Below, piece by piece: positions 988 to 16,184 of a stretch of DNA of 44,708 nt. Under the pieces are notes generated by a model. It did not search any database and had not been told where the DNA came from. It was given only the letters and a program-made list of their open reading frames with translations. Both the position numbers and the translations under genes were made by a program. Position 1 is the first letter of the stretch; every line of letters begins with the position of its first letter. This DNA comes from a virus. The DNA is taken from positions 1 through 44,708 of the IMG/VR virus record IMGVR_UViG_3300035698_016251. One strand, given 5' to 3'.

Positions 988-1162
988 CCGGAAACGATTA
1001 CGTAAATTTAAGAATAAAGTCAAGCGATTACAACGTTTGATTGGGCATCATTTAAGACATCCAGATCAGGCAAGATGCTCATGCTTCATGTGCCGTTCAA
1101 GGAAGTATAGACAGGATAGAAAAAAAGTAAAAGCACAATGGAAAAAGGAGAATGAATTATAA
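980..1162 (+). CDS. Small highly basic protein with CxCxxC motif
   Basis: 60 residues, more than a third Lys or Arg, with CSCFMC at about residues 33-38. The charge suggests nucleic-acid binding; the cysteines could bind a metal. It overlaps the upstream gene by eight bases and its stop shares a base with the next ATG (TAATG), so the three genes are translationally coupled. No family recognised. Confidence 0.6.
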   Translation: MINRKRLRKFKNKVKRLQRLIGHHLRHPDQARCSCFMCRSRKYRQDRKKVKAQWKKENEL

Positions 1163-1962: not shown

Positions 1963-1973
1963 GGGAGTAAATG

Positions 1974-2240
1974 ATGCCAAAAGAAATTAAAGCATGGCAG
2001 TGTAGTTTTTGTAGCAGCTTTGCAATGAATCATGAGGAAATTGTAAAGCATGAAACCGCATGTGTTATGAATCCAGCAAATCATGCTTGTCATACGTGCG
2101 AAAATTATATTAAAGTTGACAATTCCCAACGTTCAGATAAGTGTGCTGTTGGGATTTACCTTGATGATGGGATGCACACCAAGACACGAATATTCTGTTC
2201 TAAGCATGAATTAAAAATCAAGAATGAAGGACGTGAATAA
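1974..2240 (+). CDS. Small zinc-finger protein
   Basis: 88 residues. The N-terminus has a C2HC-like finger (CSFC, then H and C spaced as HEEIVKHETAC), followed by CHTCENY and two further cysteines. The start at 1974 is preferred over the ATG three bases earlier because GGGAG ends seven bases before it. Likely nucleic-acid or protein binding; partner unknown. It is embedded in the run of cysteine-rich small genes. Confidence 0.65.
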   Translation: MPKEIKAWQCSFCSSFAMNHEEIVKHETACVMNPANHACHTCENYIKVDNSQRSDKCAVGIYLDDGMHTKTRIFCSKHELKIKNEGRE

Positions 2241-2241
2241 T

Positions 2242-2451
2242 ATGGCATATGAAGTTGATGTTAAATGCCCAAAGTGTAAACATGAATGGGAATGTGATCT
2301 TCATTATTTATTTGAGGATGGATATGAGGACTATGATAAATTCGAGGGAGAATTTACCTGCCCTAAATGCAGTGATATTTTTTATGCTGATGTTAGAATA
2401 ACAATTGGCACTCATCAAGAGATAGTGGAATACAAGGAGAATGAAAAATGA
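2242..2451 (+). CDS. Small zinc-ribbon protein
   Basis: 69 residues with two CxxC knuckles, CPKC near residue 8 and CPKC near residue 40, the standard zinc-ribbon pattern. A longer frame begins at 2224 inside the previous gene, but AAGG ends eleven bases before the ATG at 2242, so the shorter start is used. Its end overlaps the next ATG by four bases. Function unknown. Confidence 0.65.
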   Translation: MAYEVDVKCPKCKHEWECDLHYLFEDGYEDYDKFEGEFTCPKCSDIFYADVRITIGTHQEIVEYKENEK

Positions 2452-2828
2452 TAAAAGCAATACGCGAAGTGAATGAAACCCTTATGGAAATCAGGGACAT
2501 CCTCGACAAAGGCCAAGACGAGGACATCGAACGATCTAAACGACACTTGGCAATTGCTGAAAAGCATTTGGCAATACGTGAAAAACAGGACGCTACCGAA
2601 AAGGCTTATCGGGGCATAGAGGAAAGATGGTTAATGGAGCAAATTAAGAATCTCGGTGAATGTCTCTATGATGCTGAACTATCGATGAATGATGCTGATG
2701 TTGAGATAGTCGGTATCTTAGAGGGGATGTATAAGGATTTCACAGGCATAGCAGAAAAGTATAACATCGACTGGAAATCAGAGGTCGAAAAACTTAATCA
2801 AGGAGAACGAAATGACAGACAAGAATAA
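2448..2828 (+). CDS. Coiled-coil hypothetical protein
   Basis: 126 residues, almost entirely charged helix (E/K/R-rich heptads through residues 1-75), no cysteine cluster and no membrane segment. It overlaps both neighbours (4 bases upstream, 17 downstream). No family recognised. Confidence 0.6.
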   Translation: MIKAIREVNETLMEIRDILDKGQDEDIERSKRHLAIAEKHLAIREKQDATEKAYRGIEERWLMEQIKNLGECLYDAELSMNDADVEIVGILEGMYKDFTGIAEKYNIDWKSEVEKLNQGERNDRQE

Positions 2829-3363
2829 TGAAGAACTGGTGTATGATTTGACGGATATGTTGAAGCCTAATTTTACTATTATCGGAGACAATCGAATCAT
2901 TATAAAAATTGGCGATTATTACCATTGCTTTGATGAGTCTGGACATAGAACCATGCCCGATGATAGTCAGAAGATTTTGAGCATAAACCCTTTCGTGCCA
3001 CTCCCCGATGCCAAACCCCGCAAGTGGGTAACGCTTAAGACGCAGAACGGCGTGGATGTGATGTGTGAGTTTGTGGCGACGCATAAGGGTATAAGTTCAG
3101 GTAAGAACGTTATGCTTGTCCACTCAAAAAGATTACAACATGCGGTTTATGAAGATGGGACTATCGAAGAAGTTACTGATTCTGGCATCGCCCAATTCTA
3201 CACGCCCATCCTAGACCCACAACCAACGCCACTGGAAATGGTGAATGAGATGATAAAAAATAATCCAGAAGGCTTACCCCTTGATGGAAAATTACTAGTG
3301 AGCATCGACAAGATCAAAGAACTCCTAATAATGTTGGTGGAATTGGAGGCGCAGGATGAATGA
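2812..3363 (+). CDS. Hypothetical protein
   Basis: 183 residues, unrecognised. The middle is beta-rich with PRKWVTLKTQNGVDV around residue 69-84, and the C-terminal 40 residues are helical. AAGGAG lies just upstream of the ATG. Codon use in 3000-3220 is noticeably richer in G and C than the flanking genes, which may mark a recently acquired or shuffled gene. Confidence 0.6.
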   Translation: MTDKNNEELVYDLTDMLKPNFTIIGDNRIIIKIGDYYHCFDESGHRTMPDDSQKILSINPFVPLPDAKPRKWVTLKTQNGVDVMCEFVATHKGISSGKNVMLVHSKRLQHAVYEDGTIEEVTDSGIAQFYTPILDPQPTPLEMVNEMIKNNPEGLPLDGKLLVSIDKIKELLIMLVELEAQDE

Positions 3364-3553
3364 TAGATACGAAAAGATGCTGGCGATTATAATCGCACTT
3401 TTAGTCCTGTTTGTAGTCATTATGTGTGTCAGCACGGCTAACATCGACCGTCTCGGAAAGCGGGTGCGTGACATTGAAAAGTACAACCTTGAATCGTTCA
3501 ATCAGATGTCGGAGGATAGGGCTGATAATTTGGAGGCTACTGATGGATTATAA
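3356..3553 (+). CDS. Small membrane protein with coiled-coil tail
   Basis: 65 residues. One hydrophobic segment at about residues 9-26 (LAIIIALLVLFVVIMCV), then a charged helix. Topology resembles a spanin or Rz-like anchor or a generic phage inner-membrane protein, but nothing specific supports a lysis role. Overlaps both neighbours. Confidence 0.55.
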   Translation: MNDRYEKMLAIIIALLVLFVVIMCVSTANIDRLGKRVRDIEKYNLESFNQMSEDRADNLEATDGL

Positions 3554-3767
3554 CTGTCCAGCAACAATGAAGTTAGTCAAGGATAAAGTCAAGGTAGGTC
3601 AATACTGGCGATCAATTGAGGATGGTCAAGATTTGAAAGTCCTTGAAATGGGAAACACTGAAATATGGTTTCATCATTATTCACAGGCTATGCAGCCAAC
3701 AAAAGGCGCGATGAAATATGAGGAACTATTAAGGGAATATGAGTTGGTGATTAAAGATGGAAATTAA
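3543..3767 (+). CDS. Small hypothetical protein
   Basis: 74 residues when started at 3543, where GGAGG ends six bases upstream. The frame is open back to 3426, but that part lies inside the previous gene and lacks a ribosome site. The protein has the pattern VKVGQYWRSIEDGQDLKVLEM, a small beta-barrel-like layout seen in short phage proteins. Function unknown. Confidence 0.55.
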   Translation: MDYNCPATMKLVKDKVKVGQYWRSIEDGQDLKVLEMGNTEIWFHHYSQAMQPTKGAMKYEELLREYELVIKDGN

Positions 3768-3948
3768 GATTATTTGCCGGGTGATACTTTGCATTATTGC
3801 TATCACCACTGTTGTGTATGGATGTATAAGCAGGTCAATTTGGCATGATAAAAAGTGGTATTATCATCTTAGATTGCTGGTAATGGAAATACTTGGTTAC
3901 GGTGCAATACTAATATTAATTTATTATGCATGTGAAGGTGCAAAATGA
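3757..3948 (+). CDS. Small two-helix membrane protein
   Basis: 63 residues with two hydrophobic stretches, about residues 4-22 and 40-58, joined by a basic loop (WHDKKWYYH). Size and topology would also fit a small holin, but no endolysin gene was recognised near it. Overlaps the previous gene by 11 bases and the next by 4. Confidence 0.5.
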   Translation: MEIKIICRVILCIIAITTVVYGCISRSIWHDKKWYYHLRLLVMEILGYGAILILIYYACEGAK

Positions 3949-4145
3949 CAAAACATAGAAAAAAGAAACGTAAATCTAATCATAAAATGAAACTCTTTAA
4001 GCACAGAGTGGAGCGTTTCTTGCAGGCAGTGGTACCAATCAAATTTGCATCCTACAGGGTCTGTGTGGATCTGAATGGGCATATAAAAGCAGGGGAAATG
4101 ATTCTTGAAAATGACTTATTTAAAAGAGAAATTCAGGGAGATTGA
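3945..4145 (+). CDS. Small basic protein
   Basis: 66 residues. The first 27 are extremely Lys/Arg-rich (KHRKKKRKSNHK), the rest beta-like. Probably binds nucleic acid, by charge only. Starts with ATG overlapping the upstream stop. Confidence 0.5.
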   Translation: MTKHRKKKRKSNHKMKLFKHRVERFLQAVVPIKFASYRVCVDLNGHIKAGEMILENDLFKREIQGD

Positions 4146-4147
4146 AA

Positions 4148-4582
4148 TTGATTAATATCATTACCGATAAAAATTACCCTGCTTTACGTAAACAGCAAAG
4201 AAAAGAATACTTTCATTATATGAGGTATGACTGTAGGTGGTGGAGAGTTAAAAATAAAGTCAAAGCACGGGATAATTTCACATGCATATTATGTGGCAGT
4301 AAAAGTGGTATTACGGTCCATCACTTGACTTACCCAAAGCATATATCAGATACAAAGGAAAACCATTTAATAACAGTATGCCATACTTGCCATAACAAAA
4401 TGCATAAACGAATTAAACTGCCTCTATGGATTAAGAAACATTTAGGGTGGAAACTTCACGTTTTAATTCTCAGTATGCTTGTAAAACCCTGCCGTGGGTT
4501 TTGGTATATTTACTGTATTTACAAATATCAATTATTTAAAAGAAAAAGACAACCAATCAAAAAAGGAAGTGAAGAATGTTAG
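4148..4582 (+). CDS. HNH endonuclease
   Basis: 144 residues. A classic HNH nuclease core: CILCG at about residue 45, HHLTY with the catalytic His near 63, and CHTCHNKMH near 85-93, the zinc pairs being CxxC and CxxC. Free-standing HNH enzymes in phages are homing nucleases or packaging-associated nickases; with a C-terminal extension of about 50 residues containing a hydrophobic patch, the role is unclear. The start is a TTG: AGGGAG ends seven bases before 4148, favouring it over the TTG at 4142. Confidence 0.75.
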   Translation: MINIITDKNYPALRKQQRKEYFHYMRYDCRWWRVKNKVKARDNFTCILCGSKSGITVHHLTYPKHISDTKENHLITVCHTCHNKMHKRIKLPLWIKKHLGWKLHVLILSMLVKPCRGFWYIYCIYKYQLFKRKRQPIKKGSEEC

Positions 4583-4785
4583 TTACAGAAAAAGAAATTA
4601 AAGACTCAGAGACATGTGTTAAGGCATGGGCTAATGATGTGTACTACCCACATAAATGTACTTTGCCAGAGGCAATGCTTAAATGTGCTGAATTAAACAG
4701 GAACTTTGATACTTCTGAGTATCAATATGAAGTTGAACAATGCTCCAAGTGTAGCAAATTTCATGTTTATAAAGTGAAGAAATAA
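4576..4785 (+). CDS. Small hypothetical protein with C-terminal CxxC
   Basis: 69 residues. N-terminal helix-rich part with two cysteines and a C-terminal CSKCSKFHVYKV knuckle, a pattern seen in small phage proteins of unknown role. Overlaps the HNH gene's end by seven bases. Confidence 0.55.
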   Translation: MLVTEKEIKDSETCVKAWANDVYYPHKCTLPEAMLKCAELNRNFDTSEYQYEVEQCSKCSKFHVYKVKK

Positions 4786-4796
4786 AGGAGAATAAA

Positions 4797-5156
4797 GTGA
4801 CCGTAATTATGAATGAGTTGATATGGATTGGAGCCCTTACTATTATATTAGGTACTGTTTTGATATGGGGGGCTATACATCTAAGGAACAGTTTTTTTAA
4901 GGCAATAGAAGATAATGCAGATTTAGAGAAAAGAGCTATTGATAGAATGATGGAAAGCGCAAAGCTAAAACGTAAAGTCACTCCTAATACAAGGGAAGTT
5001 GCTGGGTGGGATATTAAATGGTGCTGGGACTGTACTCATTTTGATGAAGAAAATAAACATTGTGAGCATCCCATGAGGAACCTTGGTAGGGGAGGATGCT
5101 CCAATCTATGGGTTTATGAAACTAAATGCACGAACTATGAATCAGTGAAGAAATAA
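4797..5156 (+). CDS. Membrane-anchored cysteine-rich protein
   Basis: 119 residues. Starts at GTG with AAAGGAG ending six bases upstream. A hydrophobic segment at about residues 9-28 is followed by a charged helix and a C-terminal domain with six cysteines (WCWDCTHF, HCEHP, GCS, KCTNYE). The C-terminal pattern CxxCxHFD...C is found in short phage zinc-binding proteins. The fusion to a membrane anchor is unusual. Function unknown. Confidence 0.6.
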   Translation: MTVIMNELIWIGALTIILGTVLIWGAIHLRNSFFKAIEDNADLEKRAIDRMMESAKLKRKVTPNTREVAGWDIKWCWDCTHFDEENKHCEHPMRNLGRGGCSNLWVYETKCTNYESVKK

Positions 5157-5167
5157 ATTTAAATCTT

Positions 5168-5557
5168 ATGTTCCGTAAATGTGAAATATGTAACAGGATT
5201 TTCCAACAGGAAGGATCAAACTGCAAGGTTTGTGAAACTTGCCAATCATCAAAATATAAAAAAGTCAAACGGAAACAGAAAACCAGAACTAAAAAAAGGA
5301 ATAAGGGAGCGAGGTCAATCAACTCCAAAGGGTATATTCTGGTTTACTTTCCTCAACATCCTATGGCAGCTAAATCAGGATATGTTTTAGAACATCGACT
5401 AGTCATGGCGCATCATTTAAAAAGAGTATTGAAACGGAATGAAGTGGTGCATCATATTGATGGTAACAAAAGGAATAATAAAATTGGGAATTTGGAAATT
5501 ATTAATTATCGGGAACATAATAAGTTGCATGGGAGGAAGGAAAGAGAAAAGATTTAA
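5168..5557 (+). CDS. HNH homing-type endonuclease with zinc-finger N-terminus
   Basis: 129 residues. Two CxxC pairs at residues 5-26 form a zinc finger, then a very basic linker (about 28-48), then an HNH core: EHRLVMAHHL near 75-84, VVHHIDGNKRNNKIGNLEII near 93-112 and EHNKLH near 116. This matches the HNH_3 class found in phage homing nucleases. It ends one base before the convergent glycosyltransferase gene, with no terminator between them. Confidence 0.8.
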   Translation: MFRKCEICNRIFQQEGSNCKVCETCQSSKYKKVKRKQKTRTKKRNKGARSINSKGYILVYFPQHPMAAKSGYVLEHRLVMAHHLKRVLKRNEVVHHIDGNKRNNKIGNLEIINYREHNKLHGRKEREKI

Positions 5558-5558
5558 A

Positions 5559-6467
5559 TTAATCAGTGCCTCTGGTTTTGGTTTTGGTTTTGAGGATCAT
5601 CTTATAACCTCCAGACTCCTCTATTTGTTGTGCTACAATTGCATCATAATTCTTTTTGCGTTTCAATTTGTTTGCTCGGAATGGTTTGTAATTTACATAG
5701 TGATGAATACGCCCATATCTCATTACCAGTTTGGATACATCAGGGTGCACCCTGACTTGCATTTCCGATTTAGGATAAGTGCCCTCCCTTGCATAAAACT
5801 CCCCTGTATTGCCACCTTTAACTGTTTGTGTAGCCATTTTGCCCTGTAAAAAAGTATTAAATTGAATTGTGCAATATCCTCCTTTCAAAATATCCAGACT
5901 CAGTATTGTATCCTCATTATATCGACCACGCCAACAATAAGGAATATCATTACGAATAAGATTACATGAGTATATTCGTGTGTTAAATACTATTGCTGGG
6001 TACTTCTGTTTAGATGCCACAAATCCACGATAATTTGGTCCTGCCATATAAACATTTGTATATCTCAAACAGAAGTCCTCCATTACCCTGAATGGCATAC
6101 CTCCATTTATTCTAATTCTTTTATTATGATGATACCTGAAAAACTGGTTTATATTATCATCCATTGTCCAGTGCCAATCATAACCCTCTCTGATTGAATG
6201 CTCCCACAGGAAGTTTCTAGCAGGTCCGGGTCCAGTGCTTTTTGTGCGCCCTAGATCATCGCACAACTCATATTTATCTTTGTATGATTCATCAAGAATT
6301 AGTAATGTAACAAATGGATTATCTTTAGTTGCTTGTTTATACTGCTTGTATTCCTGCTCTTCAATGACCAGTGTATGTGGTAATTTGGAAAGACTCAATG
6401 CATTACTGGTTAGCCTCACATCATAACGACCTTTGCTTGGAATATATATGGGAAATCTGTTTAGCAC
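5559..6467 (-). CDS. TET-associated glycosyltransferase (TAGT family)
   Basis: 302 residues. Members of this family, related to the C-terminal domain of GREB1, transfer a sugar to hydroxymethylated bases in phage DNA. Landmarks: IPSKGR at residues 9-14, GPGPARN around 79-85, WTMDDN with the metal-binding acids at 100-105, a TNVYMAGPNY strand around 137-146, WRGRYNEDT at 179-187, and KGGNT at 217-221, followed by HPDVSKL and GRIHHYVNYKPFR. The length is complete. Start is GTG overlapping the upstream radical SAM stop by one base (TAGTG), so it is the last gene of a coupled three-gene operon. Sugar donor and target base cannot be told from the sequence. Confidence 0.85.
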   Translation of the reverse strand: MLNRFPIYIPSKGRYDVRLTSNALSLSKLPHTLVIEEQEYKQYKQATKDNPFVTLLILDESYKDKYELCDDLGRTKSTGPGPARNFLWEHSIREGYDWHWTMDDNINQFFRYHHNKRIRINGGMPFRVMEDFCLRYTNVYMAGPNYRGFVASKQKYPAIVFNTRIYSCNLIRNDIPYCWRGRYNEDTILSLDILKGGYCTIQFNTFLQGKMATQTVKGGNTGEFYAREGTYPKSEMQVRVHPDVSKLVMRYGRIHHYVNYKPFRANKLKRKKNYDAIVAQQIEESGGYKMILKTKTKTRGTD

Positions 6468-7486
6468 TATTCATCCTCTGTGAAATCTTTCCATCCATCA
6501 TCATAGTAACAACTTACTTGCTCATCTTTCCAGTGCCTGAAATCGCATCTTGAAAATGTAATATTGCATTTAGCATAGGCAAATAAAGTTCCTGCTCTGT
6601 CCTTTTCTCGTAAACGCCTTCTGATTATCTGCATATTTTTTCCGAACCAGAAATTATAAAATCCATCTATGCCAGTATTCACGTTTCCAAACATCCCTGC
6701 ACTTAACTGCATTCCATCTTGACAACACAGTAAATATGAACCGTCTGAAGCTACAGTTACATAAAGGAAAGGCTGATTACAACGTCTGGTTAATGGTTTT
6801 AAAAGGGGCTTCATGCCAAATCGCTTTCCACGCTCCCAATCTAAATTCCCATACCAGTTGCCTAGCAAGCCAGCACGGAACCGTGATTGAGGCCACTTCT
6901 CCGGTGGATCCATCAATACAATCATTTTCACATGTGGGCCATAATATTTCCATGGCGTAGGCATTCCGGGTTTAGGATCATAATACTGAAAGAAAGGATA
7001 ACCGGATTTCTGTGCAAGTGCCTCAAATTCTTCATGCGTTCCATACTGGTCAACATAAATAATATTTGCGCCAGCGTTTAGTAAATCCTTAAAGGTGTAT
7101 TTTCCTTTACGTAATAATACTCCATTTGTTGTTATTTGAATTTGTACTAAGGGTGCTAATTTTCTAGCTATCGAAAGAAACTCTGGCAAATGATCATTTA
7201 ATGTTGGCTCCCCAACATAGCCACATATATCAACTCTAACCGATGGTGATACCTTGTTCATGATTGTGAATGCAGAAATCCATGTTTTCTTATTCATTGC
7301 AAGATGCTTTTTGGTATCAATCAACCCGGCGCAACAATGTCCACACTTTAAATTACAACCAAAATATGGCTCTATTGACCAGACCCAAGGTGACATATTC
7401 CCCAATGTTTTTATCTTTTTGATAGATTTAAGATTAGGGAAACCCTCATTCTGTGGATAAAACTTTATTCTGGTTGATTGGGTCAT
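6467..7486 (-). CDS. Radical SAM protein with SPASM-like C-terminus
   Basis: 339 residues. The radical SAM cluster motif is C-x3-C-x2-C at residues 44, 48 and 51 (GCNLKCGHCC). A further glycine motif (GYVGEP) falls where GGEP normally sits, a variant. The C-terminal region carries extra cysteines (RRCNQP, LLCCQDG, KCNI, SRCDFRHW) likely to bind an auxiliary cluster. Radical SAM proteins abstract a hydrogen from a substrate carbon; sandwiched between ParB-domain and TAGT genes, the likely substrate is a modified base or its sugar, by inference. Start overlaps the ParB stop by four bases (ATGA). Confidence 0.85.
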   Translation of the reverse strand: MTQSTRIKFYPQNEGFPNLKSIKKIKTLGNMSPWVWSIEPYFGCNLKCGHCCAGLIDTKKHLAMNKKTWISAFTIMNKVSPSVRVDICGYVGEPTLNDHLPEFLSIARKLAPLVQIQITTNGVLLRKGKYTFKDLLNAGANIIYVDQYGTHEEFEALAQKSGYPFFQYYDPKPGMPTPWKYYGPHVKMIVLMDPPEKWPQSRFRAGLLGNWYGNLDWERGKRFGMKPLLKPLTRRCNQPFLYVTVASDGSYLLCCQDGMQLSAGMFGNVNTGIDGFYNFWFGKNMQIIRRRLREKDRAGTLFAYAKCNITFSRCDFRHWKDEQVSCYYDDGWKDFTEDE

Positions 7487-8109
7487 GATTCATCATCTTC
7501 ATAGCTGCTATTTTTTAACACATGATCCGCAACAAATGGATACCAGACTGATTTTGTCTTAGGAGTAATTTTCTGCTCTATTAATTTAGCAAATTCTTGA
7601 ACATCAGTATCATTCTTAAATGAAACTATTACCTGCCTTTGCGGAGATTTATCCTCTGATTCAAAATCAGGCATACTCTCCCACTCGTCATTGGCTAATG
7701 TAATTCCAGAAGTCAATTCATCCAGCATCAACTCTTCAAAATCCTCTTCTAACATTTCCTCTTGAATTTCCTCTAACAAGGGATCTAACTTTTCCATGTC
7801 AAATGTGCCTTGAATATTTGGGTTGTTCAAGGTGATATTGAGAATGCGCTCTTCTGATTCAGGGAGATCAACTAGTAAGACATCTACTTCTTCTATGCCC
7901 TCTGCTATCATCGCAGCTAATCGCTGGTGTCCTGATATGACAGTGTCAGTAGATTCATTGATGACAATGAGATCAACTATACCAAAACGGCGGATGCTGG
8001 CTCTGAGACCTGCTATAGCCTCTGGAGTTATGTTTCTGGGGTTGTATGGTGCTGGTTTTAGGGTTGATATTTTTCTTTTTACTATTTTGTGTGATTTTTG
8101 TTCTGGCAT
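7483..8109 (-). CDS. ParB/Srx-domain protein (nuclease-like, no HTH seen)
   Basis: 208 residues. N-terminal ParB/sulfiredoxin fold: STLKPAPYNPRNI at 15-27, LRASIRRFGIVDLIVIN at 35-51 and SGHQRLAA at 59-66, in place of the GERR box of segregation ParB proteins. After NITLNNPNIQG (91-101) comes an acidic helical tail and a conserved-looking KSVWYPF near 190. No helix-turn-helix is apparent, so it is not a plasmid-type centromere-binding ParB. Such domains recur beside phage DNA-modification and methylase genes. First gene of the minus-strand operon; AAAGGA precedes the ATG, and a 19-bp dyad lies between it and its promoter. Confidence 0.85.
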   Translation of the reverse strand: MPEQKSHKIVKRKISTLKPAPYNPRNITPEAIAGLRASIRRFGIVDLIVINESTDTVISGHQRLAAMIAEGIEEVDVLLVDLPESEERILNITLNNPNIQGTFDMEKLDPLLEEIQEEMLEEDFEELMLDELTSGITLANDEWESMPDFESEDKSPQRQVIVSFKNDTDVQEFAKLIEQKITPKTKSVWYPFVADHVLKNSSYEDDES

Positions 8110-8128
8110 TTTTAGGTTCCTTTATGGA

Positions 8129-8147
8129 TTACAGGAAGTTCCTGTAA
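8129..8147. promoter_or_regulatory. 19-bp operator-like perfect dyad
   Basis: TTACAGGAAGTTCCTGTAA: nine-base perfect arms around a single central base. It lies in the leader of the ParB-radical SAM-TAGT operon, between the promoter at 8173-8202 and the start codon at 8109, a position where a bound dimeric repressor would block elongation. The protein that binds it is unknown. Confidence 0.55.
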
Positions 8148-8172
8148 CGCCGGGATGATATGTACTGTGTTC

Positions 8173-8202
8173 ATTGTAGCATAAAAAGATGATATTTGTA
8201 AA
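8173..8202 (-). promoter_or_regulatory. Sigma-70 promoter of the ParB-rSAM-TAGT operon
   Basis: Read on the minus strand: TTTACA (8202-8197), an 18-base spacer, TACAAT (8178-8173). Transcription would begin near 8166, giving a leader of about 55 bases that contains the 19-bp dyad. Confidence 0.6.
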
Positions 8203-8256
8203 CTTTTAAATACTGAGGGTTTTTAAAGGCATGAAATAGGACAGGATGATCTTGGG

Positions 8257-8735
8257 AGTAGTGGTCCCATGTTATACTCGTATTTATGCTGATTACAGTG
8301 TTTTGGGACCGGCTGGAAAAGTAGTGGTCTGTGTGGTGGTCTCACTCAAATGTTGATAAAAGCAAGGAGAAACAAGGTTTTGGACCGGCTTTTCTTATAC
8401 ACGTGAGGAGGATCAAATTTTTTATTTTTTTTTTTTTGAAAAACGTCAATATAGTGGTCTTGCCGGTCTCAAAATCTGAAAAGATACTAGAAATGCGAGT
8501 CACAAAGGCATATTCCCAGACCGGTACTCTTATATCATCGTGGTCATCATATTCTGCTATACAGGGAATCATCATGCTCCAAGCATTGGTTAGTAAGTGT
8601 AAATGAGAATAAAAATATACAGAACCTCATCCTGTATATACTCCATATAAGAAAAAATAAATCCTGTATATAAAATTTGTTGAAAGATTTAAATTTTTCG
8701 GAGTTACAATACCCTGTTATTACGGGACCACTACT
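8257..8735. repeat. Dispersed repeat family (AGTAGTGGTCYC and GGACCGGC types)
   Basis: AGTAGTGGTCCC at 8257-8268 is repeated as its exact reverse complement at 8724-8735. Related copies: AGTAGTGGTCT at 8320-8330, GTGGTGGTCTC near 8333-8343, ATAGTGGTCTTG at 8451-8462 and CGTGGTCATC at 8539-8548. A second sub-family carries ACCGGC or its complement: 8305-8313 (GGGACCGGC), 8381-8390, 8462-8470 (GCCGGTCTC) and 8518-8525 (AGACCGGT). All share a GGTC/GACC core and look like multiple binding sites for one protein. Confidence 0.6.
8629..8672. repeat. 12-bp direct repeat ATCCTGTATATA, two copies
   Basis: Exact copies at 8629-8640 and 8661-8672, with a start-to-start distance of 32 bases, about three helical turns. 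Weaker relatives CCCTGTATCATCC (8775-8787) and ATCTGTATATAAT (8895-8907) continue toward the terminase promoter. The spacing would place bound proteins on one face of the DNA. Confidence 0.5.
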
Positions 8736-8845
8736 TTAAAAACGTGCTGGTCGCAAATGCTGTAATACAATATACCCTGTATCATCCTTGTATAAACAAC
8801 AGGGCAAGAGAGGTGGATCGTTCATGTGGGGTTATGAAGTAGAAG

Positions 8846-8861
8846 TGTTTCACGTGAAACA
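8846..8861. promoter_or_regulatory. parS-type centromere site (perfect 16-bp palindrome)
   Basis: TGTTTCACGTGAAACA, a perfect palindrome identical to the consensus site bound by chromosomal ParB (Spo0J) in most bacteria. A chance match of 16 fixed bases in 45 kb is very unlikely. It lies in non-coding DNA some 70 bases upstream of the terminase promoter. The phage's own ParB-domain protein lacks a visible HTH and the GERR box, so host ParB is the more likely binder. Confidence 0.8.
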
Positions 8862-8930
8862 AATTTTGTAGGGAGTTTAAACAAACCTTGAATAATCTGT
8901 ATATAATTCCTCTTTTAATTCTAGTAAACC

Positions 8931-8959
8931 TTTACAAAATCTCGCATATAATATATACT
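8931..8959 (+). promoter_or_regulatory. Sigma-70 promoter upstream of terminase small subunit
   Basis: TTTACA (8931-8936), 17-base spacer, TATACT (8954-8959). Transcription would begin near 8966, which leaves a 27-base leader before the GTG at 8993 and is one reason for choosing that start. A second TATAAT at 8947-8952 overlaps. Confidence 0.55.
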
Positions 8960-8992
8960 TACTCTGTAGTTAGTTAAGTGGAGTGGGTCTCT

Positions 8993-9628
8993 GTGAAATC
9001 AAAAAGAGCATCAAAATATGACTGGGCAGCTATTAAAAATGACTACCTGCAAGGTTTCAGTTGGAAAGAAATAGAAACTAAATATGGGATATCAGCTGCT
9101 GGATTGAATCAGAAAGTTAAAAAAGAAGACTGGAAAACTCAAAAGGCTGATTTCCAAATGAAGTTAGCTAAGAAAACTTTAGCCAAGAGAACCGGCGTAA
9201 CTGTCAAAACTTTAAAAGAATTTAATTTGAAAGCAGAGCAATCATGCGATGTCAGTATAGCCTTAGTCCGTAATCAAATCATTCGATTGTCTAACGAGGA
9301 ACGAAAAGCAAAGGAGGATAAAAAGGTATATGAATTGGATCCAGATTATCTAGGTAAATTATCCAAGATTGCTGAAATGGTAATGAATCTAAAATATAGG
9401 ATACTTGGATACAATCCTCCACCGGGTTTTGGTATGGGTGCTCATGGTGATGGGCATCAATTACCAGATGATATTGAAGGGGAATATATGGAGTTGGATG
9501 TTGATGCTTCTAAAGGTAATGAAACAATTGAACTCTATAATGAGTTGCAAAGAAAGAGCGAGGCATTGGAAGAGGAAAAGATAAAACTTTTACAAGTGGA
9601 GAATAGTAGTGAGCCGAAGAAAACGTAG
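8993..9628 (+). CDS. terS: Terminase small subunit
   Basis: 211 residues when started at GTG 8993, which has GGAG nine bases upstream; an in-frame GTG at 8978 has no ribosome site and would lie almost at the transcription start. Binds phage DNA and loads the packaging motor. The N-terminus is a helix-turn-helix (YDWAAIKNDYLQGFSWKEIETKYGIS layout with GISAAGLNQKV as recognition helix), followed by a helical oligomerisation region and a charged C-terminal tail, the usual small-terminase order. Its partner, the large subunit, lies 6.5 kb downstream past a block of tailoring genes, an unusual separation. Confidence 0.75.
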   Translation: MKSKRASKYDWAAIKNDYLQGFSWKEIETKYGISAAGLNQKVKKEDWKTQKADFQMKLAKKTLAKRTGVTVKTLKEFNLKAEQSCDVSIALVRNQIIRLSNEERKAKEDKKVYELDPDYLGKLSKIAEMVMNLKYRILGYNPPPGFGMGAHGDGHQLPDDIEGEYMELDVDASKGNETIELYNELQRKSEALEEEKIKLLQVENSSEPKKT

Positions 9629-10328
9629 AAAGTCTGCTATCATTCATAGAAGAAAACTTCTGACAGTCAGAATAGGTAATTTATTTAAGCCTATTCCAGA
9701 TGTCAGTTGCTCCTCTCTTAAATTCCCTGAAGATGTTTATTTGTTAGGATCGGGACCAAATGGTATTGAGCATTATTCCAGTATTCCTAAAGGTTCTTAT
9801 GTTGTGGCAGTCAATAAGGCTGTGTTAATTCCTTCTGTCTTGCCAGTGTTATTTGATATTAACGCATGGATAATTGCAGACTACAATGTAATCCAGACCC
9901 CATATTATTTAGATGTTAGAAATAAATTCACTGGCACTAAGATATACAGTATGGAAGCAGCTCTTAGAGATAAAGTATTTGGCAAGGATGATTTGCCAAG
10001 TTATACTTTTTTTCAACATCCAAGATCAACCCGGTGTTTCATATATAGAGTTGGCATGGATGATTACCAGATGGAGGGTACAGTTGGCTCTATTGCTATT
10101 CAAGTTTTAGCAAGGAAAGGAGTCAAGAGAATTAAGGTGTGTGGTTTCGATGTTTCAGGTGATATAGATTTTCAAGGGGAGTTGCCAAAGGATCATAGGC
10201 ACGGCTCCGTTTGGAAAGCATCTAAATTTTTTGACAGTACAATCAGTTACTTTCAATCGCAGGGAATTGAGATTAGTTCTTTAAGTGAAACTAAGTTACA
10301 ATTATTACAGAGTGCTGAGATTAGATAG
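9609..10328 (+). CDS. DUF115/MptE-like or sialyltransferase-like Rossmannoid protein
   Basis: 239 residues from a GTG with GGAG seven bases upstream. VYLLGSGPN at 43-51 is a nucleotide-binding loop, and GTVGSIAIQVLARKGVKRIKV at 157-177 followed by CGFDVSGD resembles the second half of DUF115/MptE and GT42 (CstI/CstII) proteins, which bind CMP- or other nucleotide-linked donors. The N-terminal 20 residues are strongly basic, as in the neighbouring genes starting at 14038 and 14775. It overlaps terS by 20 bases. Likely a sugar-nucleotide-dependent transferase, substrate unknown. Confidence 0.55.
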   Translation: MSRRKRRKSAIIHRRKLLTVRIGNLFKPIPDVSCSSLKFPEDVYLLGSGPNGIEHYSSIPKGSYVVAVNKAVLIPSVLPVLFDINAWIIADYNVIQTPYYLDVRNKFTGTKIYSMEAALRDKVFGKDDLPSYTFFQHPRSTRCFIYRVGMDDYQMEGTVGSIAIQVLARKGVKRIKVCGFDVSGDIDFQGELPKDHRHGSVWKASKFFDSTISYFQSQGIEISSLSETKLQLLQSAEIR

Positions 10329-10333
10329 ATTGG

Positions 10334-10361
10334 TAGGGGGATCATTAATTTGGTCCCTCTA
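10334..10361 (+). promoter_or_regulatory. Intergenic stem-loop before glycosyltransferase gene
   Basis: A ten-pair stem including two G-U pairs (left arm from 10334, right arm ending 10361) around an eight-base loop. No T-run follows, so it is not an ordinary terminator. It sits 16 bases before the next start codon in one of the few gaps of the tailoring cassette and could mark an RNA processing or attenuation site. Confidence 0.35.
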
Positions 10362-10377
10362 TTAGCAGGAGAACATT

Positions 10378-11040
10378 ATGTTACCCACAATTGCATATCT
10401 TTCCTTAGTCAATAACTCTCTGTATGCCAGACAGGCAGTTGTTAATGCCTATTTCCAAAAGTATCCTAATGAGAAGAAAACTATCTATTTGATTCATGAT
10501 TATCAAATGGCACCTGTGTTTTCAGATATTATAATTGTACAAAATTTATTTTTAAATAAGCAACTATTAGATAACAGTTGGTGGGCAAGAAAGATTGAGT
10601 TGGCACTACAAAGTATTCAAGAGGAGTACATAGTTTGGTGGGATTCAGATGATTTATATGAGCCTGAATACACAAGAAAGATTTCAGATTTCTTTAAATT
10701 GAATTCTCAATTTTCAATGGCATGGAATCATAACATGATTGACGTTAATCAAAAGGGAGTTTTATTTAAATCTTTTTCCAGTGGTATTGGTACTTTAGCT
10801 ATTAGGACTGATGTATTAAAAAGTATTTTTCCCATATTTCTTAAAAAATATCCAGAGCGAGTTTCTTTTAGTAATAAGAAAAAACTTTTTATCCCATTGG
10901 ATTTCTCCTTTAGAAAATTTATTGAGAATAAATACAAGAGAGTTTTAGGTGAAGGTGATTGGATAAGGGCGTATGTGAATCATCCTAAATCTTTTAGTGC
11001 AATGACAAATTCAGATGTAAAAAAGGAAACTATATTATGA
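10378..11040 (+). CDS. GT-A-type glycosyltransferase-like protein
   Basis: 220 residues. IAYLSLVNN...ARQAVVNAYFQKYP near the start, and YIVWWDSDDLYEPEYTRKI at 84-102 with the acidic DSDD that would bind metal and nucleotide-sugar in GT-A enzymes. It is a paralogue of the gene at 15525: both share the NHxx and GTL patterns, a VLK-x7-LKK-x-YP block, an LD-x-FRK-x-IE-x-KY block and a similar tail. AGGAG lies upstream of the ATG; the end overlaps the next gene by four bases. Acceptor unknown. Confidence 0.65.
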   Translation: MLPTIAYLSLVNNSLYARQAVVNAYFQKYPNEKKTIYLIHDYQMAPVFSDIIIVQNLFLNKQLLDNSWWARKIELALQSIQEEYIVWWDSDDLYEPEYTRKISDFFKLNSQFSMAWNHNMIDVNQKGVLFKSFSSGIGTLAIRTDVLKSIFPIFLKKYPERVSFSNKKKLFIPLDFSFRKFIENKYKRVLGEGDWIRAYVNHPKSFSAMTNSDVKKETIL

Positions 11041-12026
11041 GAAATAGGAAGCATCGTTTACATTTGAAGAATAATCCTAGAAAAATTGGTAAGGGCACTG
11101 TGTTCTTAAAGCAATGCAGAGAGTTCAATTGGATAGCTGAGGTTTTTAAAAAAGCAGGGTGGACTGTATATACTGGAGCGCACAATAGCCATGCACCTTT
11201 AGGCTTGGAACTTTATTTTATGTGGGCTGGCTCTAAATACTCACATGTTGACACAGTGAAAAAACTTAAAAAAGGTGGGGGCAGAGTAATTTATGGGGAG
11301 CATGGATGGCTGCCACAGCAAGAGTCATTCTATTTAGATGCTAAAGGAACCGGAGTGTCTTCCAGTTTGATGGATATGAAGTTAGAGGGGGATCTTACAG
11401 ATAAGCAGAAAACCTTACTGCGTGGTTTGATTGTCAGATATAAGTCTTTGATGGTTTCTAGTGATATTAAAATTCGATATGATGATAAATTTGATAGAGA
11501 TTTGATAGTACTCGTGCCTCTGCAGAAAGAAGGTGATGATCGAATCATAAGAACCAGTCCATTTAAAACCATGAAGGCTTTTCTTATGAGGTTGACTCTT
11601 ATTAAAGGAGTTCATTTCATAGTTAAGATGCATCCAAGAGAGCAAAGACATTTGAAATTAGTGAGAGAATTTGGGAGTGGATTAAATTTTACCTTTCTCC
11701 CATTTAATTGTGATTTAGGTTCCTTGTTGGATACTGTTGATCATGTTATGACTATTAATTCAACAACTGGCATTGAAGGATTAGCATGGGGCAAGAGCGT
11801 AAGTACATTTGGAGAATCTATCTATACTCGTGTTGGATTAGTTAATCAACTTGAGCATGGACAGGCTATCATGAAAGAAGATTTAATGAGTTGTGAAAAA
11901 GATCCAGACATGATAGATGTTTTCCTGTATAATTTATTTAAAAGGCAATTACTGAAATCAGATGTTAATCATCCTGATTTTATTGAACGATTATTAGATA
12001 ACAATTTTACTAAGGTAGGTATGTAA
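11037..12026 (+). CDS. Capsule-synthesis (KpsC/KpsS-like) GT-B glycosyltransferase
   Basis: 329 residues. EHGWLPQ at 88-94, VLVPLQKEGDDRI at 158-170, the VKMHPRE loop at 196-202 and INSTTGIEGLAWGKSVSTFG at 240-259 are the marks of the capsule-synthesis family that builds Kdo linkers on bacterial capsule. In phages such proteins could add sugars to DNA bases or to virion or host glycans. Overlaps the next ATG by one base (TAATG). Confidence 0.65.
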   Translation: MRNRKHRLHLKNNPRKIGKGTVFLKQCREFNWIAEVFKKAGWTVYTGAHNSHAPLGLELYFMWAGSKYSHVDTVKKLKKGGGRVIYGEHGWLPQQESFYLDAKGTGVSSSLMDMKLEGDLTDKQKTLLRGLIVRYKSLMVSSDIKIRYDDKFDRDLIVLVPLQKEGDDRIIRTSPFKTMKAFLMRLTLIKGVHFIVKMHPREQRHLKLVREFGSGLNFTFLPFNCDLGSLLDTVDHVMTINSTTGIEGLAWGKSVSTFGESIYTRVGLVNQLEHGQAIMKEDLMSCEKDPDMIDVFLYNLFKRQLLKSDVNHPDFIERLLDNNFTKVGM

Positions 12027-12667
12027 TGGCAGATCATTTAAGAAATCCTTGGGTAGTGGAGGATTCAGACATAGGTTTATTTAAAAAAGTTTTGGAAGAG
12101 TTAGTCCAGAGACATCCAAAAGAAACTTTAAATATTTTAGAATGGGGCGCAGGTGGGAGCACTTATTACTATACTAAGTTTCTGAAGGAAAAGGGAATTG
12201 ATTTTAAGTGGTTAGCAGTTGAGCATGACAAAGGATGGAGCAAAAGAGTAAATGATATTTTGGAATTCCCAATTAAAGTGGGGGCAGTGTTTCCTGAGCA
12301 ATGGGCTTTTGTGCAATGGATCCAGCAGGTAGCACCTTATCTTAAGGTCCCATTTCCAAATGTTCCAGAGTATAATCCGAAATATAATTATTATAAATAT
12401 CCAAGACATTTTTTAGATGTATGTAATGTTCCCGGATTTCATTTAATTTATATTGATGGCAGATTTCGTTCCAGATGTTTGAAGGAGACACTGACACTTC
12501 TTTTAGATTCAGGGATCATAGTTATGGATAATGCAGAAAGAGCATGGTATCAGAAAGCAATCAGTGAGTGCTCTTTAAAGAATAAATTTATTAAGCCCCA
12601 TTGGTGGATTGCAGATTCCATAGGGAGTCATTTCATTAATTCAGTTGGAAAGAAGAATATCCTTTAG
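12026..12667 (+). CDS. Class I SAM-dependent methyltransferase-like protein
   Basis: 213 residues. Motif I is ILEWGAGGST at 37-46; VEHDKGW at 65-71 supplies the acidic end of strand 2; IDGRFRSRC at 143-151 and GIIVMDNAER at 163-172 are later strands as in small-molecule and sugar methyltransferases. Not a DNA-methylase motif set (no NPPY or PCQ). Placed among glycosyltransferases, it probably methylates a sugar or modified nucleotide. Confidence 0.6.
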   Translation: MADHLRNPWVVEDSDIGLFKKVLEELVQRHPKETLNILEWGAGGSTYYYTKFLKEKGIDFKWLAVEHDKGWSKRVNDILEFPIKVGAVFPEQWAFVQWIQQVAPYLKVPFPNVPEYNPKYNYYKYPRHFLDVCNVPGFHLIYIDGRFRSRCLKETLTLLLDSGIIVMDNAERAWYQKAISECSLKNKFIKPHWWIADSIGSHFINSVGKKNIL

Positions 12668-12690
12668 TGAGGCATGAATAAGGAGAAAAG

Positions 12691-13452
12691 ATGGATTATC
12701 CATTTAGGAATATAGGATTTATAATTACTCAGAAGTGTAATAAATTATGCAAAGGTTGTGGGCTTCTTATCTCCTCTGTAAAAGACCGTAAAGATACAAC
12801 TTATGCAGAGTTCCAAAAAGCAATTGAATGTACTTCTAATGAGTTTAAGGAGAGTGGAAAAACAGTTGTAATAACCGGGGGAGAGCCACTAATCCATCCT
12901 GACATTGAGCAAATAGTTATTGATTGTTTGGATAATTTCTCTAATTCCAAAGTTCAAGTCTTAACAAATGGGAAAAAATTTCCTGAATTTGTACATCTTT
13001 TAGATATTGATGATAGGGTTCATATTAGAATATCAGAATATCCCGGATGGAATGATGATATTATTAATAAATATGTTGATTTCCACAAGAATATATTGAT
13101 ATTTAGGTATGGTGGATTCTGGAAACCTGATTTAGATTTTCTAATTCCAGATATGGATGTGGCATTGGATAGGGCTATCAAATGTGGTTCTGGTGGATGT
13201 ATTAGATTTTTTAAAGATAAAGTTTATTATTGTTGTGCTGGTGAAATGTTAGAACGATTACATCCTTCAATGGACTTAGGAGTATCAGTTAAATCTGGAT
13301 GGGAAGAGGATATGAAAGATATTACCTTTTGGGAAGGATGTAGTAAATGTTTTGTAGCCAGTGCTAGAAGTTTATATCTACAATATTCAAGTGATCAAGA
13401 AAAAATAGTTCAATCAACTACACATTGTAGTATGGAAGAAGGAGATGAATAA
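12691..13452 (+). CDS. Radical SAM protein
   Basis: 253 residues. C-x3-C-x2-C at 16, 20 and 23 (CNKLCKGC), TGGEPLIHPDI at 62-72, and later cysteines (KCGSGGC, YYCCAGE, GCSKC) that could bind a second cluster. It begins after a 23-base gap with AAGGAG upstream, and ends in a one-base overlap with the next gene. A second radical SAM enzyme beside that of the TAGT operon; the two share only the cluster motif. Substrate unknown. Confidence 0.8.
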   Translation: MDYPFRNIGFIITQKCNKLCKGCGLLISSVKDRKDTTYAEFQKAIECTSNEFKESGKTVVITGGEPLIHPDIEQIVIDCLDNFSNSKVQVLTNGKKFPEFVHLLDIDDRVHIRISEYPGWNDDIINKYVDFHKNILIFRYGGFWKPDLDFLIPDMDVALDRAIKCGSGGCIRFFKDKVYYCCAGEMLERLHPSMDLGVSVKSGWEEDMKDITFWEGCSKCFVASARSLYLQYSSDQEKIVQSTTHCSMEEGDE

Positions 13453-14045
13453 TGCCAAGTTCAAGACCAGACACAATAATTCCAGTCTTAGATTTTGTCC
13501 GTGCCACTCAACCTAAAAGTATTCTTGATATAGGAATGGGGGATGGTTTCTATGGAATTCTTTTTCGCAGGGAGTTAGATGGCAATGTTATTATTGATAA
13601 GGGATTTCATAAACCGGAGTCATGGGATGTCCATATAAAGGGGATTGAAATTTTTTCTTCTTATATAACAAAAGCTCATGAATATGCCTACAATGAGATT
13701 AAGATTGGTAATATCTTAGATGATTTTGATGATTTAATTGAGCAAAATGAGAAGTATGATTTGATTTTTATGGGTGATGTAATTGAGCATATGGAGAAGT
13801 CAGATGGCATTAAGATTTTACTTAAACTCAAAAAACATTTAAATAGCAACAAACATATTCTTGTTGTTACTCCTAATTATAAAACTCAATGGCATCAAGA
13901 GATTGCAGGAAACAAACATGAGGCGCATTTATCTTTATGGAACATTAAAGATTTTGAATACGGATTTTGGCATGAGCGTGGTTTGAATTGCCGAGCCAGT
14001 ATTGTAGGGAAAAAACTCTTAGGCAGGTTCCAGAGGAATGGATAG
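13452..14045 (+). CDS. Class I SAM-dependent methyltransferase-like protein
   Basis: 197 residues. Motif I ILDIGMGDG at 24-32, and DLIFMGDVIEHMEK at 103-116, the typical motif II-III region of UbiE/COQ5-like or sugar methyltransferases, then HILVVTPN for strand 5. The region between is short. Together with its neighbours it fits a sugar- or nucleotide-tailoring set. Overlaps the next gene by eight bases. Confidence 0.75.
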   Translation: MPSSRPDTIIPVLDFVRATQPKSILDIGMGDGFYGILFRRELDGNVIIDKGFHKPESWDVHIKGIEIFSSYITKAHEYAYNEIKIGNILDDFDDLIEQNEKYDLIFMGDVIEHMEKSDGIKILLKLKKHLNSNKHILVVTPNYKTQWHQEIAGNKHEAHLSLWNIKDFEYGFWHERGLNCRASIVGKKLLGRFQRNG

Positions 14046-14778
14046 ACTACCAATTGACAGAGCTCCATATTCTTTGAAGGTCGGTTTTGTTAGTAATATG
14101 AAAGTAAGACAGCGAAATAGAAGGAAGAGAGCACAGATATTTCCAGAAGCAAATGAGATAGCTGCAATGGTAGTGAACTATAAAACAAGGGATCTGATTG
14201 CAAGGTCAGTATTGGCTTTCAGGACATACTATCCTAATATTCATTTGTTGATTGTGGATGGTTCCAGTTATGATGACAGCACTGATTGGGTATATGAGTT
14301 TTGTCAAAGAGATCAAAATTCCACTATGATTGCCTGTAATTTCAATATTCATCATGGACCCGGAATGGATCTGGGCTTGAGTGTTTTAAATTACAAATAC
14401 GTTTATATTTTTGATAGTGACACTTTTTTAAATAAAGATTCCATATTAGAAACGATGTTCAAATCAGTGAAGAGGGAATCCGCATGGTATGGTGTAGGGA
14501 ATATAGTAGGTGTGCAAGGTAATGGCATGGATGATGAAATTGATGGGTTTGCTTATCTTCATCCAAGATGCATGTTAATACAGAGGAGCTTCTATTTCAA
14601 ATTCAAACCTTTTTTAAAGCATGGGGCACCTTGCATTCATACAATGACTCAATTAAGAGATAGGGAGTTGGCATACCTTTTAAAAGATTTTGATGTTGAT
14701 GCTTTTTTAGATGTGGATCACGGCTTATTAAAAACCTGTCAAAGATATGGATACGATTTAAGAAGGGAAAGAAAATGA
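14038..14778 (+). CDS. Family 2-like glycosyltransferase
   Basis: 246 residues. After a basic leader (residues 21-33), AAMVVNYKTRDLIARSVLAF at 42-61 and IHLLIVDGSSYDDSTDW at 68-84 form the GT2 donor-binding half, and YIFDSDTF at 123-130 the DSD metal site. The C-terminal half is short and lacks the QxxRW motif of processive enzymes, so it would add single sugars. Tightly overlapped on both sides. Confidence 0.75.
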   Translation: MDRLPIDRAPYSLKVGFVSNMKVRQRNRRKRAQIFPEANEIAAMVVNYKTRDLIARSVLAFRTYYPNIHLLIVDGSSYDDSTDWVYEFCQRDQNSTMIACNFNIHHGPGMDLGLSVLNYKYVYIFDSDTFLNKDSILETMFKSVKRESAWYGVGNIVGVQGNGMDDEIDGFAYLHPRCMLIQRSFYFKFKPFLKHGAPCIHTMTQLRDRELAYLLKDFDVDAFLDVDHGLLKTCQRYGYDLRRERK

Positions 14779-15524
14779 GTCTAAGAAGGAAACGAAAAAA
14801 GATTAAGACTAAAATTGAGAACAAAGTTGTATCTGATGCTCCTTTGATTCAAGAAACTTTAAATTTACCAACAGTAAAGGAACCTAAAATTTTATTAAAA
14901 GACCAAAAGATATTATCTGTAGTGACAAGGCACATGCCACTTAAAAGGAAAGATTCTTTTAAACGTATGATGGATACTCTTTCACCTATGCAGGATCAAA
15001 TTCAACATATTGTAATAGAGGATAGAGTCTGTTCCGGCTGGAGGCAGTCAGCACAATTAGTTGTTGACAAAAGAAAAGAAGTTACTGGATATTATGTTTG
15101 GTTGCTAGATGATGACGATGAATGTACCGCTTCTCACTTGCCACTTATTTTAGAGCGGGTAAGAAATCTTTATGATGTGGATATAATTATTGTCAAGGCG
15201 TGGATGCAGAGGCATGGAATAGTTCCAGTTGCAGAATATTGGAATTCCCATGATATATTTAAATTTGTTGCTTGCACTATTGGGATGCCATGTTTCATTT
15301 TAAAGAATGAATTATTCCAAAGGCATGTATTAGATATGCCAACTGCGGATAGATGGGTTGACTGGCAATTTTTTTCATCAGTTCAAAAAGGAATTAAGAA
15401 GTATAACTATAAATGGATGTTCTTGGATCTTTTAGTAATGAGACAAGCGACTAAATTATTTGGGACAGAGGAAAAGTTTAATAGAGAGGATCCTGAATTT
15501 AAAATTTTATATGGTGGTGGATAA
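14775..15524 (+). CDS. GT-A-like glycosyltransferase
   Basis: 249 residues. A very basic N-terminus (RRKRKKIKTK), then ILSVVTRHMPLKRKDSFKRMM at 46-66 and YVWLLDDDDE at 107-116, the acidic metal/nucleotide site. The C-terminal domain is unlike the other three. Starts four bases inside the previous gene and abuts the next. Confidence 0.6.
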   Translation: MSLRRKRKKIKTKIENKVVSDAPLIQETLNLPTVKEPKILLKDQKILSVVTRHMPLKRKDSFKRMMDTLSPMQDQIQHIVIEDRVCSGWRQSAQLVVDKRKEVTGYYVWLLDDDDECTASHLPLILERVRNLYDVDIIIVKAWMQRHGIVPVAEYWNSHDIFKFVACTIGMPCFILKNELFQRHVLDMPTADRWVDWQFFSSVQKGIKKYNYKWMFLDLLVMRQATKLFGTEEKFNREDPEFKILYGGG

Positions 15525-16184
15525 ATGACAGAGGGATTGACAGTAGCCTATTTAACTTTAACATGGAACCCTATCAATATGAGACATGCTATTATCAGTG
15601 TGTTGAACCAAGATTATCCTGATAAGTTGAAAAAACTTTATTTGATGTGCCAAGAACCTTACCCTGATAAAATCATTCATTCAATGCCTTTTGAAATTGA
15701 ACAAATAAATGTTGCTGGTAAATGGGGGGCTTTGTGGTTCCTGAAATTACAGGAATTCAGCAAAGTAGTGAAAGAGGATATTGTGATTACATGGGATGAA
15801 GATGATAGATTCAAATTTGATTATACTCAGAAAGCCCTCTTACCATTTACAGAATTCTTTTCCTGTGATGCTACTTACAATCATCATTCTCATTGGGTAA
15901 AGAAATCAGGATTTTTTTATCAGGATTTAAAAGAGCCTTCCGGGACCCTGTGTTATAGACCAGAAGTTTTAAAAAAGTGTTTACCTCTTTTGAAAGAGGC
16001 GTATCCTAATTTAGAATCACGCCCAAATCATCCGTTGGATACTCCTTTTAGAAGAATGATAGAAGCCAAATATACAGTGAGAACTCATGAGGGTGAACGG
16101 TTCTGGATGTTTCATAGCAACCAGACAAGTAATCTAGTCCATGCACCAAACAGGTTAGTACAAGAGCATTTAGATCATGACTAA
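15525..16184 (+). CDS. GT-A-type glycosyltransferase-like protein (paralogue of 10378 gene)
   Basis: 219 residues. VAYLTLTWNPINMRHAIISVLNQDYP opening, ITWDEDD at 88-94 as acidic site, SGTLCYRPEVLKKC and PLDTPFRRMIEAKY blocks in the same order as the gene at 10378. The two flank the cassette, suggesting an old duplication. It overlaps the large terminase gene by eight bases. Acceptor unknown. Confidence 0.65.
   Translation: MTEGLTVAYLTLTWNPINMRHAIISVLNQDYPDKLKKLYLMCQEPYPDKIIHSMPFEIEQINVAGKWGALWFLKLQEFSKVVKEDIVITWDEDDRFKFDYTQKALLPFTEFFSCDATYNHHSHWVKKSGFFYQDLKEPSGTLCYRPEVLKKCLPLLKEAYPNLESRPNHPLDTPFRRMIEAKYTVRTHEGERFWMFHSNQTSNLVHAPNRLVQEHLDHD

Follow-up and report, generated by a model that had tools for sequence, protein, structure and literature searches.

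Chromosomal parS sites in bacteria are located with the 16-bp consensus TGTTTCACGTGAAACA (PMC10197239), and loading of ParB marks DNA as a bacterial centromere. Extrachromosomal mycobacterial prophages encode their own ParA and ParB (PMC7157519). Entrapment of phi29 DNA in the spore requires the host ParB protein Spo0J (Meijer et al. 2005, as cited in PMC9437464), a link that had also been drawn in the initial annotation of the DNA studied here and is borne out by that citation. On the integrative island SGI1, parS mimics bind the ParB of the IncC helper plasmid and stabilize SGI1 (PMC10954446). A literature search for phages that carry host parS sites returned only phi29 and SGI1-type cases, and no phage other than phi29 is said to exploit host ParB in the papers covered, which were mainly open access and included no preprints; prior reports may exist.

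We analyzed a single IMG/VR virus record of 44,708 bases that is classed without end repeats, and we refer to this whole stretch as the window. Scanning all of it for TGTTTCACGTGAAACA revealed one exact copy at 8846–8861, which is a perfect palindrome and the sole match with fewer than three mismatches (the runners-up have three). The site is identical to that of chromosomal ParABS systems such as B. subtilis Spo0J and C. crescentus ParB, but it lies off the chromosome and has no adjoining parA or parB. Like phi29, the window phage, in the part of it that is seen, has a host-type parS and no ParB of its own; phi29, however, a small protein-primed podovirus, carries multiple sites of the B. subtilis form, whereas the window encodes a Mu-type portal and has one fully palindromic site. 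As with SGI1, the reading developed below is of a mobile element bearing a parS for the ParB of another replicon, although SGI1 is an integrative island that uses a plasmid-encoded ParB and the ParB used by the phage would be chromosomal. Plasmid-prophage ParABS systems likewise have the partition site on the phage, but they encode their own ParA and ParB, which were not found in the window. The same exact 16-mer is present in Listeria Pecentumvirus, Lactobacillus Harbinvirus, Gordonia Orchidvirus, Vibrio phi 3, Roseobacter DSS3P8, and the bajarodino inoviruses. The features considered are as follows.

5559–6467, minus strand: TET-associated glycosyltransferase (TAGT) of a putative DNA-modification cassette (PF20691, 1.4e-36)
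6467–7486, minus strand: radical SAM/SPASM protein of the putative DNA-modification cassette (PF04055, 2.9e-9)
7483–8109, minus strand: ParB_N-domain protein without HTH, not a canonical ParB (PF02195, 5.2e-7; phrog_620; below the TIGR00180 cut-off)
8110–8977, no strand: AT-rich intergenic control region with short direct and inverted repeats, between divergent gene blocks
8846–8861, no strand: parS, perfect palindrome TGTTTCACGTGAAACA, candidate loading site for the ParB CTPase clamp (exact single-copy match; enriched in phages relative to two control palindromes)
8878–8907, plus strand: sigma-70-like promoter candidate directed toward the terminase operon, 16 bp downstream of parS (consensus scan 10/12, weak)
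8931–8959, plus strand: second sigma-70-like promoter candidate, TTTACA-17-TATACT (consensus scan 10/12, weak)
8978–9628, plus strand: terminase small subunit-like protein, encoded by the gene that opens the glycosyltransferase/terminase/structural block (PHROG 1206, E 3.5e-7)

The 868-bp gap at 8110–8977 that holds parS is one of the few real gaps in this coding-dense contig; it is flanked by the divergent ParB_N gene on one side and the terminase small subunit gene on the other and lies upstream of the terminase/structural operon. The description of the site as a perfect 16-bp consensus in a control region is thus upheld, the match being exact, single, and intergenic. The rightward block encodes the terminase small subunit, glycosyltransferases, the terminase large subunit, a Mu-type portal and Mu-F-like head protein, a capsid, a tape measure, and tail proteins; the carrier is a tailed phage. 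The terminase small subunit gene may instead start with a GTG at 8993, judging from the GGAG that precedes this codon, and the first gene of the operon begins approximately 117–132 bp past parS. The control region also contains repeats, for example AGTAGTGGTCCC at 8257–8268, GGGACCACTACT at 8724–8735, and ATCCTGTATATA at both 8629 and 8661; within 8257–8737, AGTAGTGGTCCC and its inverse, GGACCGGC motifs, and the two copies of ATCCTGTATATA are possible operators.

The leftward block consists of the genes for the ParB_N protein, the radical SAM/SPASM protein, and the TAGT, and together these form a putative DNA-hypermodification cassette (5559–8109), in which the TAGT is ∼50–55% identical to annotated beta-glucosyl-HMC-alpha-glucosyltransferase proteins of Aeromonas and Vibrio phages. 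Five contigs (L144–L148) share only the cassette with the window, with identities of 60–63% for the radical SAM protein and 40–51% for the TAGT, and ParB_N is present in two of the five. None of the five contains a parS, even with three mismatches allowed, so the site does not belong to the modification cassette. Base modification by the cassette at the central CpG of parS could, speculatively, alter ParB binding. A further block of glycosyltransferase-like, methyltransferase, and radical SAM genes separates the terminase small subunit gene from that of the large subunit (9609–16184). An N6/N4 DNA methylase at 41565–42837 seems to be split, with pieces on the minus strand at 42079–42438 and 42457–42837, and the peptide LKNLKKNLERKM is present in two reading frames, 41565–42269 and 42457–42837. 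No tRNA genes were found in the window.

Searches for phage relatives through the terminase, the portal (singly and by alignment), the tape measure, and a scan of genome contigs identified none closer than ∼28% identity: the collections searched held no terminase or tape-measure relative, and portal relatives did not exceed ∼28% identity. The window phage is, therefore, an orphan lineage among these collections. The window proteins that were scanned revealed no DNA polymerase, primase, or integrase, and because the record also has no end repeats, the contig is probably incomplete, so further parS sites or a ParB may exist elsewhere in the same phage.

A 16-mer could match the parS consensus and bind nothing relevant, and three features of the case speak for such a coincidence: the window contains a single site, the searches yielded no relative in which its conservation could be followed, and many motifs could have drawn a reader's remark. 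For the last reason, we used the IMG/VR and INPHARED collections as the chance control for the 16-mer instead of relying on expectations for the window itself. Base composition (36% GC) gives by arithmetic approximately 2e-5 exact matches expected per window, and with as many as three mismatches allowed, shuffles of the window give 0.13. The window is poor in CpG (observed/expected 0.48), which makes the CACGTG core even less likely by chance. At least 120 IMG/VR stretches contain the exact palindrome, compared with one for the reversed pattern, which is also a palindrome, and five for a shuffled palindrome that retains the CACGTG core; both control palindromes share the composition of the parS 16-mer. 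In INPHARED, queried with a padded 30-mer containing the exact palindrome, 286 of 50,697 phage records match, and the two controls match 0 and 0. Both sets are redundant, as the 120 IMG/VR stretches listed fall into 72 sequence clusters (the largest with 35 members) and the 286 INPHARED records include 87 Listeria phages, many of them from one genus. No parS at up to two mismatches was found in 85 contigs chosen without regard to parS (1.24 Mb). Given control counts of one and five against at least 120, the chance share of exact matches would be only a few percent, and exact parS matches on viral contigs are mostly non-chance. On the two composition-matched control palindromes, and with the site placed in a true gap of a contig that has few, we rejected a chance match, which we regard as very improbable. 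The same counts overturn the rarity of phage-borne host parS sites that the initial annotation had implied.

Besides the Listeria phages, the INPHARED carriers include Microbacterium, Arthrobacter, Gordonia, Lactobacillus, Bacillus, Enterococcus, and Butyrivibrio phages, and further carriers are Clavibacter, Glutamicibacter, Vibrio, and Ruegeria phages, Spiroplasma phage 4, microviruses, and inoviruses. Chromosomal contamination does not explain the matches because INPHARED consists of phage records, many of them isolates; most IMG/VR matches are unannotated metagenomic contigs, some of which may be plasmids. One such case is a 116.7-kb IMG/VR contig (L087/G086) that has 24 parS sites in two clusters at 91700–112396 (L241, L242), nearly all of the form TGTTTCACGTGGAACA, and a Soj-like ParA gene adjoining the clusters. 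This contig is perhaps a partition plasmid or a plasmid-prophage with its own partition system, and its ParA sets it apart from the other carriers.

L087/G086 illustrates a further explanation, in which a canonical ParA and ParB encoded in the missing part of the phage genome would use the window parS, as in plasmid-like prophages. The window contig, which lacks a replication module, is probably incomplete and leaves room for such genes. Against this explanation, neither component of a phage-encoded ParABS, that is, a canonical ParB with an HTH or a ParA ATPase, was found in the window: HTH_ParB is absent by profile search from the part of the genome that the window covers, ParA-type AAA_31 has no match in the window in a search whose control was positive in 14 of 14 genomes, and no integrase was found. 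Moreover, a ParB above the TIGR00180 cut-off was detected in 0 of 50 and 0 of 48 site-bearing records, the latter including 17 whole INPHARED phage genomes, in a search whose control exceeded the cut-off in eight of 14 genomes; ParB-like matches below the cut-off are present in six of these 98 records. We consider a partition system of the phage's own to be quite improbable.

The ParB_N protein encoded beside the site also does not appear to be its ligand. As had been noted from the letters, this protein lacks the HTH and the GERR box: PF02195 alone matches (residues 9–88), HTH_ParB does not, GHQRLAA replaces the canonical GERR, and the TIGR00180 match reaches 28.5 bits over positions 3–92 of 186 against a cut-off of 58.45. 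The ParB fold has spread to phage proteins with nonpartition functions, and a ParB_N protein lacking the HTH fits this known spread (PMC12704722). Judged by its domain content, the protein is not expected to bind parS. The palindrome does precede the divergent ParB_N gene within a control region, as an operator for a phage regulator such as this protein, independent of host ParB, might. Such an operator is a far-fetched alternative given the lack of a recognizable HTH, the recurrence of the 16-mer in phage groups with no regulator in common (inoviruses, microviruses, Herelleviridae, and phi29-like phages), and its identity with the host ParB consensus for finding bacterial parS (PMC10197239). 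We, therefore, rejected an operator for the ParB_N protein on the missing HTH and the presence of the same site in unrelated phages.

With the ParB_N protein lacking an HTH and no ParA found, the protein recruited, if any, would be host ParB, and from the sequence comparisons the natural ligand of 8846–8861 is very likely the chromosomal ParB of the host. The earlier proposal that the site would recruit host ParB gains from the lack of a canonical ParB in the window, the enrichment of the 16-mer, its intergenic bias, and the host-matched variants described below. The site matches the conserved palindrome at all 16 bp and recurs among carriers beyond chance in both collections, and we hold with considerable confidence that it represents a genuine host-type parS capable of loading host ParB. 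It is very likely a further member of a known but barely described class, host-ParB sites on phages.

Variants of the palindrome also bear on host use. The form TGTTCCACGTGGAACA, which we take to be the Pseudomonas form of parS, was found in 58 records, among which Pseudomonas phages are the largest group (17). Ten Klebsiella phage records also contain TGTTCCACGTGGAACA; those listed are intragenic, mostly in the baseplate wedge gene of RaK2-like phages, and these matches look incidental and are a partial counter-example to host matching. The form TGTTCCACGTGAAACA, presumably a B. subtilis form, was found in 147 records led by phages of Pseudomonas (36), Arthrobacter (28), and Bacillus (24). 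In phi29, the form TGTTTCACGTGGAACA, also presumably a B. subtilis form, is present at four sites, each one mismatch from the palindrome. To our knowledge, enterobacteria have no chromosomal ParB, and in a host without chromosomal ParB the site could not work as a loader of host ParB. Escherichia and Salmonella phages, which account for much of the phage genome data in public databases and whose hosts, as far as we know, have no chromosomal ParB, are not represented among the INPHARED matches listed; this fits the use of host ParB and is suggestive only.

The placement of sites in other carriers is biased toward intergenic regions. In the 120 listed IMG/VR stretches, 67 of 146 sites (46%) are intergenic according to a simple gene call, compared with 10% of random positions (p 5e-28), and with one site counted per cluster the proportion is 28 of 72 (p 2e-10); of the 37 sites with at most one mismatch that 17 annotated phage genomes contain, 28 fall entirely between genes. 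Six of 11 sites in two inoviruses of 5.8–5.9 kb are located 1–2 nt past a stop codon, as is the site of Clavibacter CMP1, and one phi29 site lies 1 nt past the terminase stop codon. These inoviruses, bajarodino virus 6 (L123, PQ006149.1) and bajarodino virus 69 (L135, PQ006099.1), have six (635–5643) and five perfect parS sites, respectively. In five Lactobacillus harbinviruses, two to three perfect or one-mismatch sites occur in one gene block at positions that differ between relatives, as expected if the presence of a site counts more than its place. Vibrio phage phi 3 (L126, KP280063.1) has parS in both copies of its terminal repeat (821 and 2934), and in phiPsa374-like Pseudomonas phages the direct terminal repeat contains the TGTTCCACGTGAAACA form at about 370–400; parS in a terminal repeat is possibly among the first DNA to enter the cell. 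Gordonia phages, DSS3P8, and Mimi also have sites near the genome ends. Overall, the sites of the named parS-bearing phages are mostly intergenic, none of these phages has a ParB over the cut-off, and most have two to six sites, some in terminal repeats; for several of them the host is known.

We consider it likely that the host-type parS recruits host ParB to handle phage DNA. At entry or during replication, host ParB:CTP would load at 8846–8861, and the loaded ParB would slide over the flanking phage DNA and couple it to host ParA and/or SMC, so that the phage genome would be treated like the host origin region and be positioned, segregated, or retained when lysis is slow or deferred. We infer binding by the host protein, ParB loading in infected cells, and a partition or anchoring benefit from these comparisons; anchoring or partition of the DNA of the window phage is plausible by analogy with phi29/Spo0J and SGI1. 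Taking the site as a genuine host-ParB site, we tentatively put partition or anchoring first, at somewhat below an even chance; titration is then possible but doubtful, regulation is unlikely, and any other role is improbable.

In the titration alternative, replicated phage parS would act as a decoy that soaks up host ParB and thereby disrupts either chromosome segregation or the loading of SMC in the host, or else releases the phage from some effect tied to ParB. Several carriers have three to six sites in tiny genomes, IMG/VR contigs carry arrays of five (two related contigs, L017 at 2657–3444 and L044 at 10535–11462, have five perfect parS sites each in ∼0.8–0.9 kb), and SGI1 destabilizes its helper plasmid in a dose-dependent manner partly via its parS-like copies (PMC10954446). 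Many other carriers thus have several sites, but the window, like P100, CMP1, and Nubia, has only one, and a lone site in each genome would take up little ParB unless phage copies are very numerous. As an account of the window site in its own right, we find titration rather unlikely.

The proximity of parS to the structural operon raises regulation as another alternative, in which host ParB spreading from parS would silence the terminase/structural operon at low copy number and replication would dilute ParB, creating a timer. P. aeruginosa ParB at intergenic parS3/parS4 represses adjacent promoters (PMC5521831), and the two promoter candidates start 16 and 69 bp past parS. However, the total count of sigma-70-like candidates in the consensus scan is no higher than in shuffles, and the sites of other carriers follow stop codons and occur in mixed gene contexts, unlike promoter control. 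The moving harbinvirus sites and the inovirus sites that follow stop codons favor position-independent use (partition, anchoring, or titration) over promoter control. Because the window parS lies just upstream of two weak promoter candidates, copy-number-dependent silencing keeps a small probability, slightly below that of titration.

The breadth of parS carriage, 27 carrier names in INPHARED and 72 clusters among the IMG/VR matches listed, did not appear in the literature searched, and this general pattern across phages is a more interesting result than the single site in the window. It suggests that many phages borrow the chromosome-segregation machinery of their hosts. On balance, we favor the view that carriage of host parS without ParB is a widespread convergent strategy by which phages are handled by the host segregation/SMC machinery, with the window representing one orphan lineage; this view covers tailed dsDNA phages, phi29-like phages, microviruses, and inoviruses that would have acquired perfect or host-matched sites independently. 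If phages routinely carry a ParB loading site, then host ParB, ParA, or SMC would be infection factors in many bacteria. The positioning and persistence of phage DNA in nondividing or sporulating cells would then be testable by simple 16-bp mutations, and the parS content of a phage could hint at its hosts.
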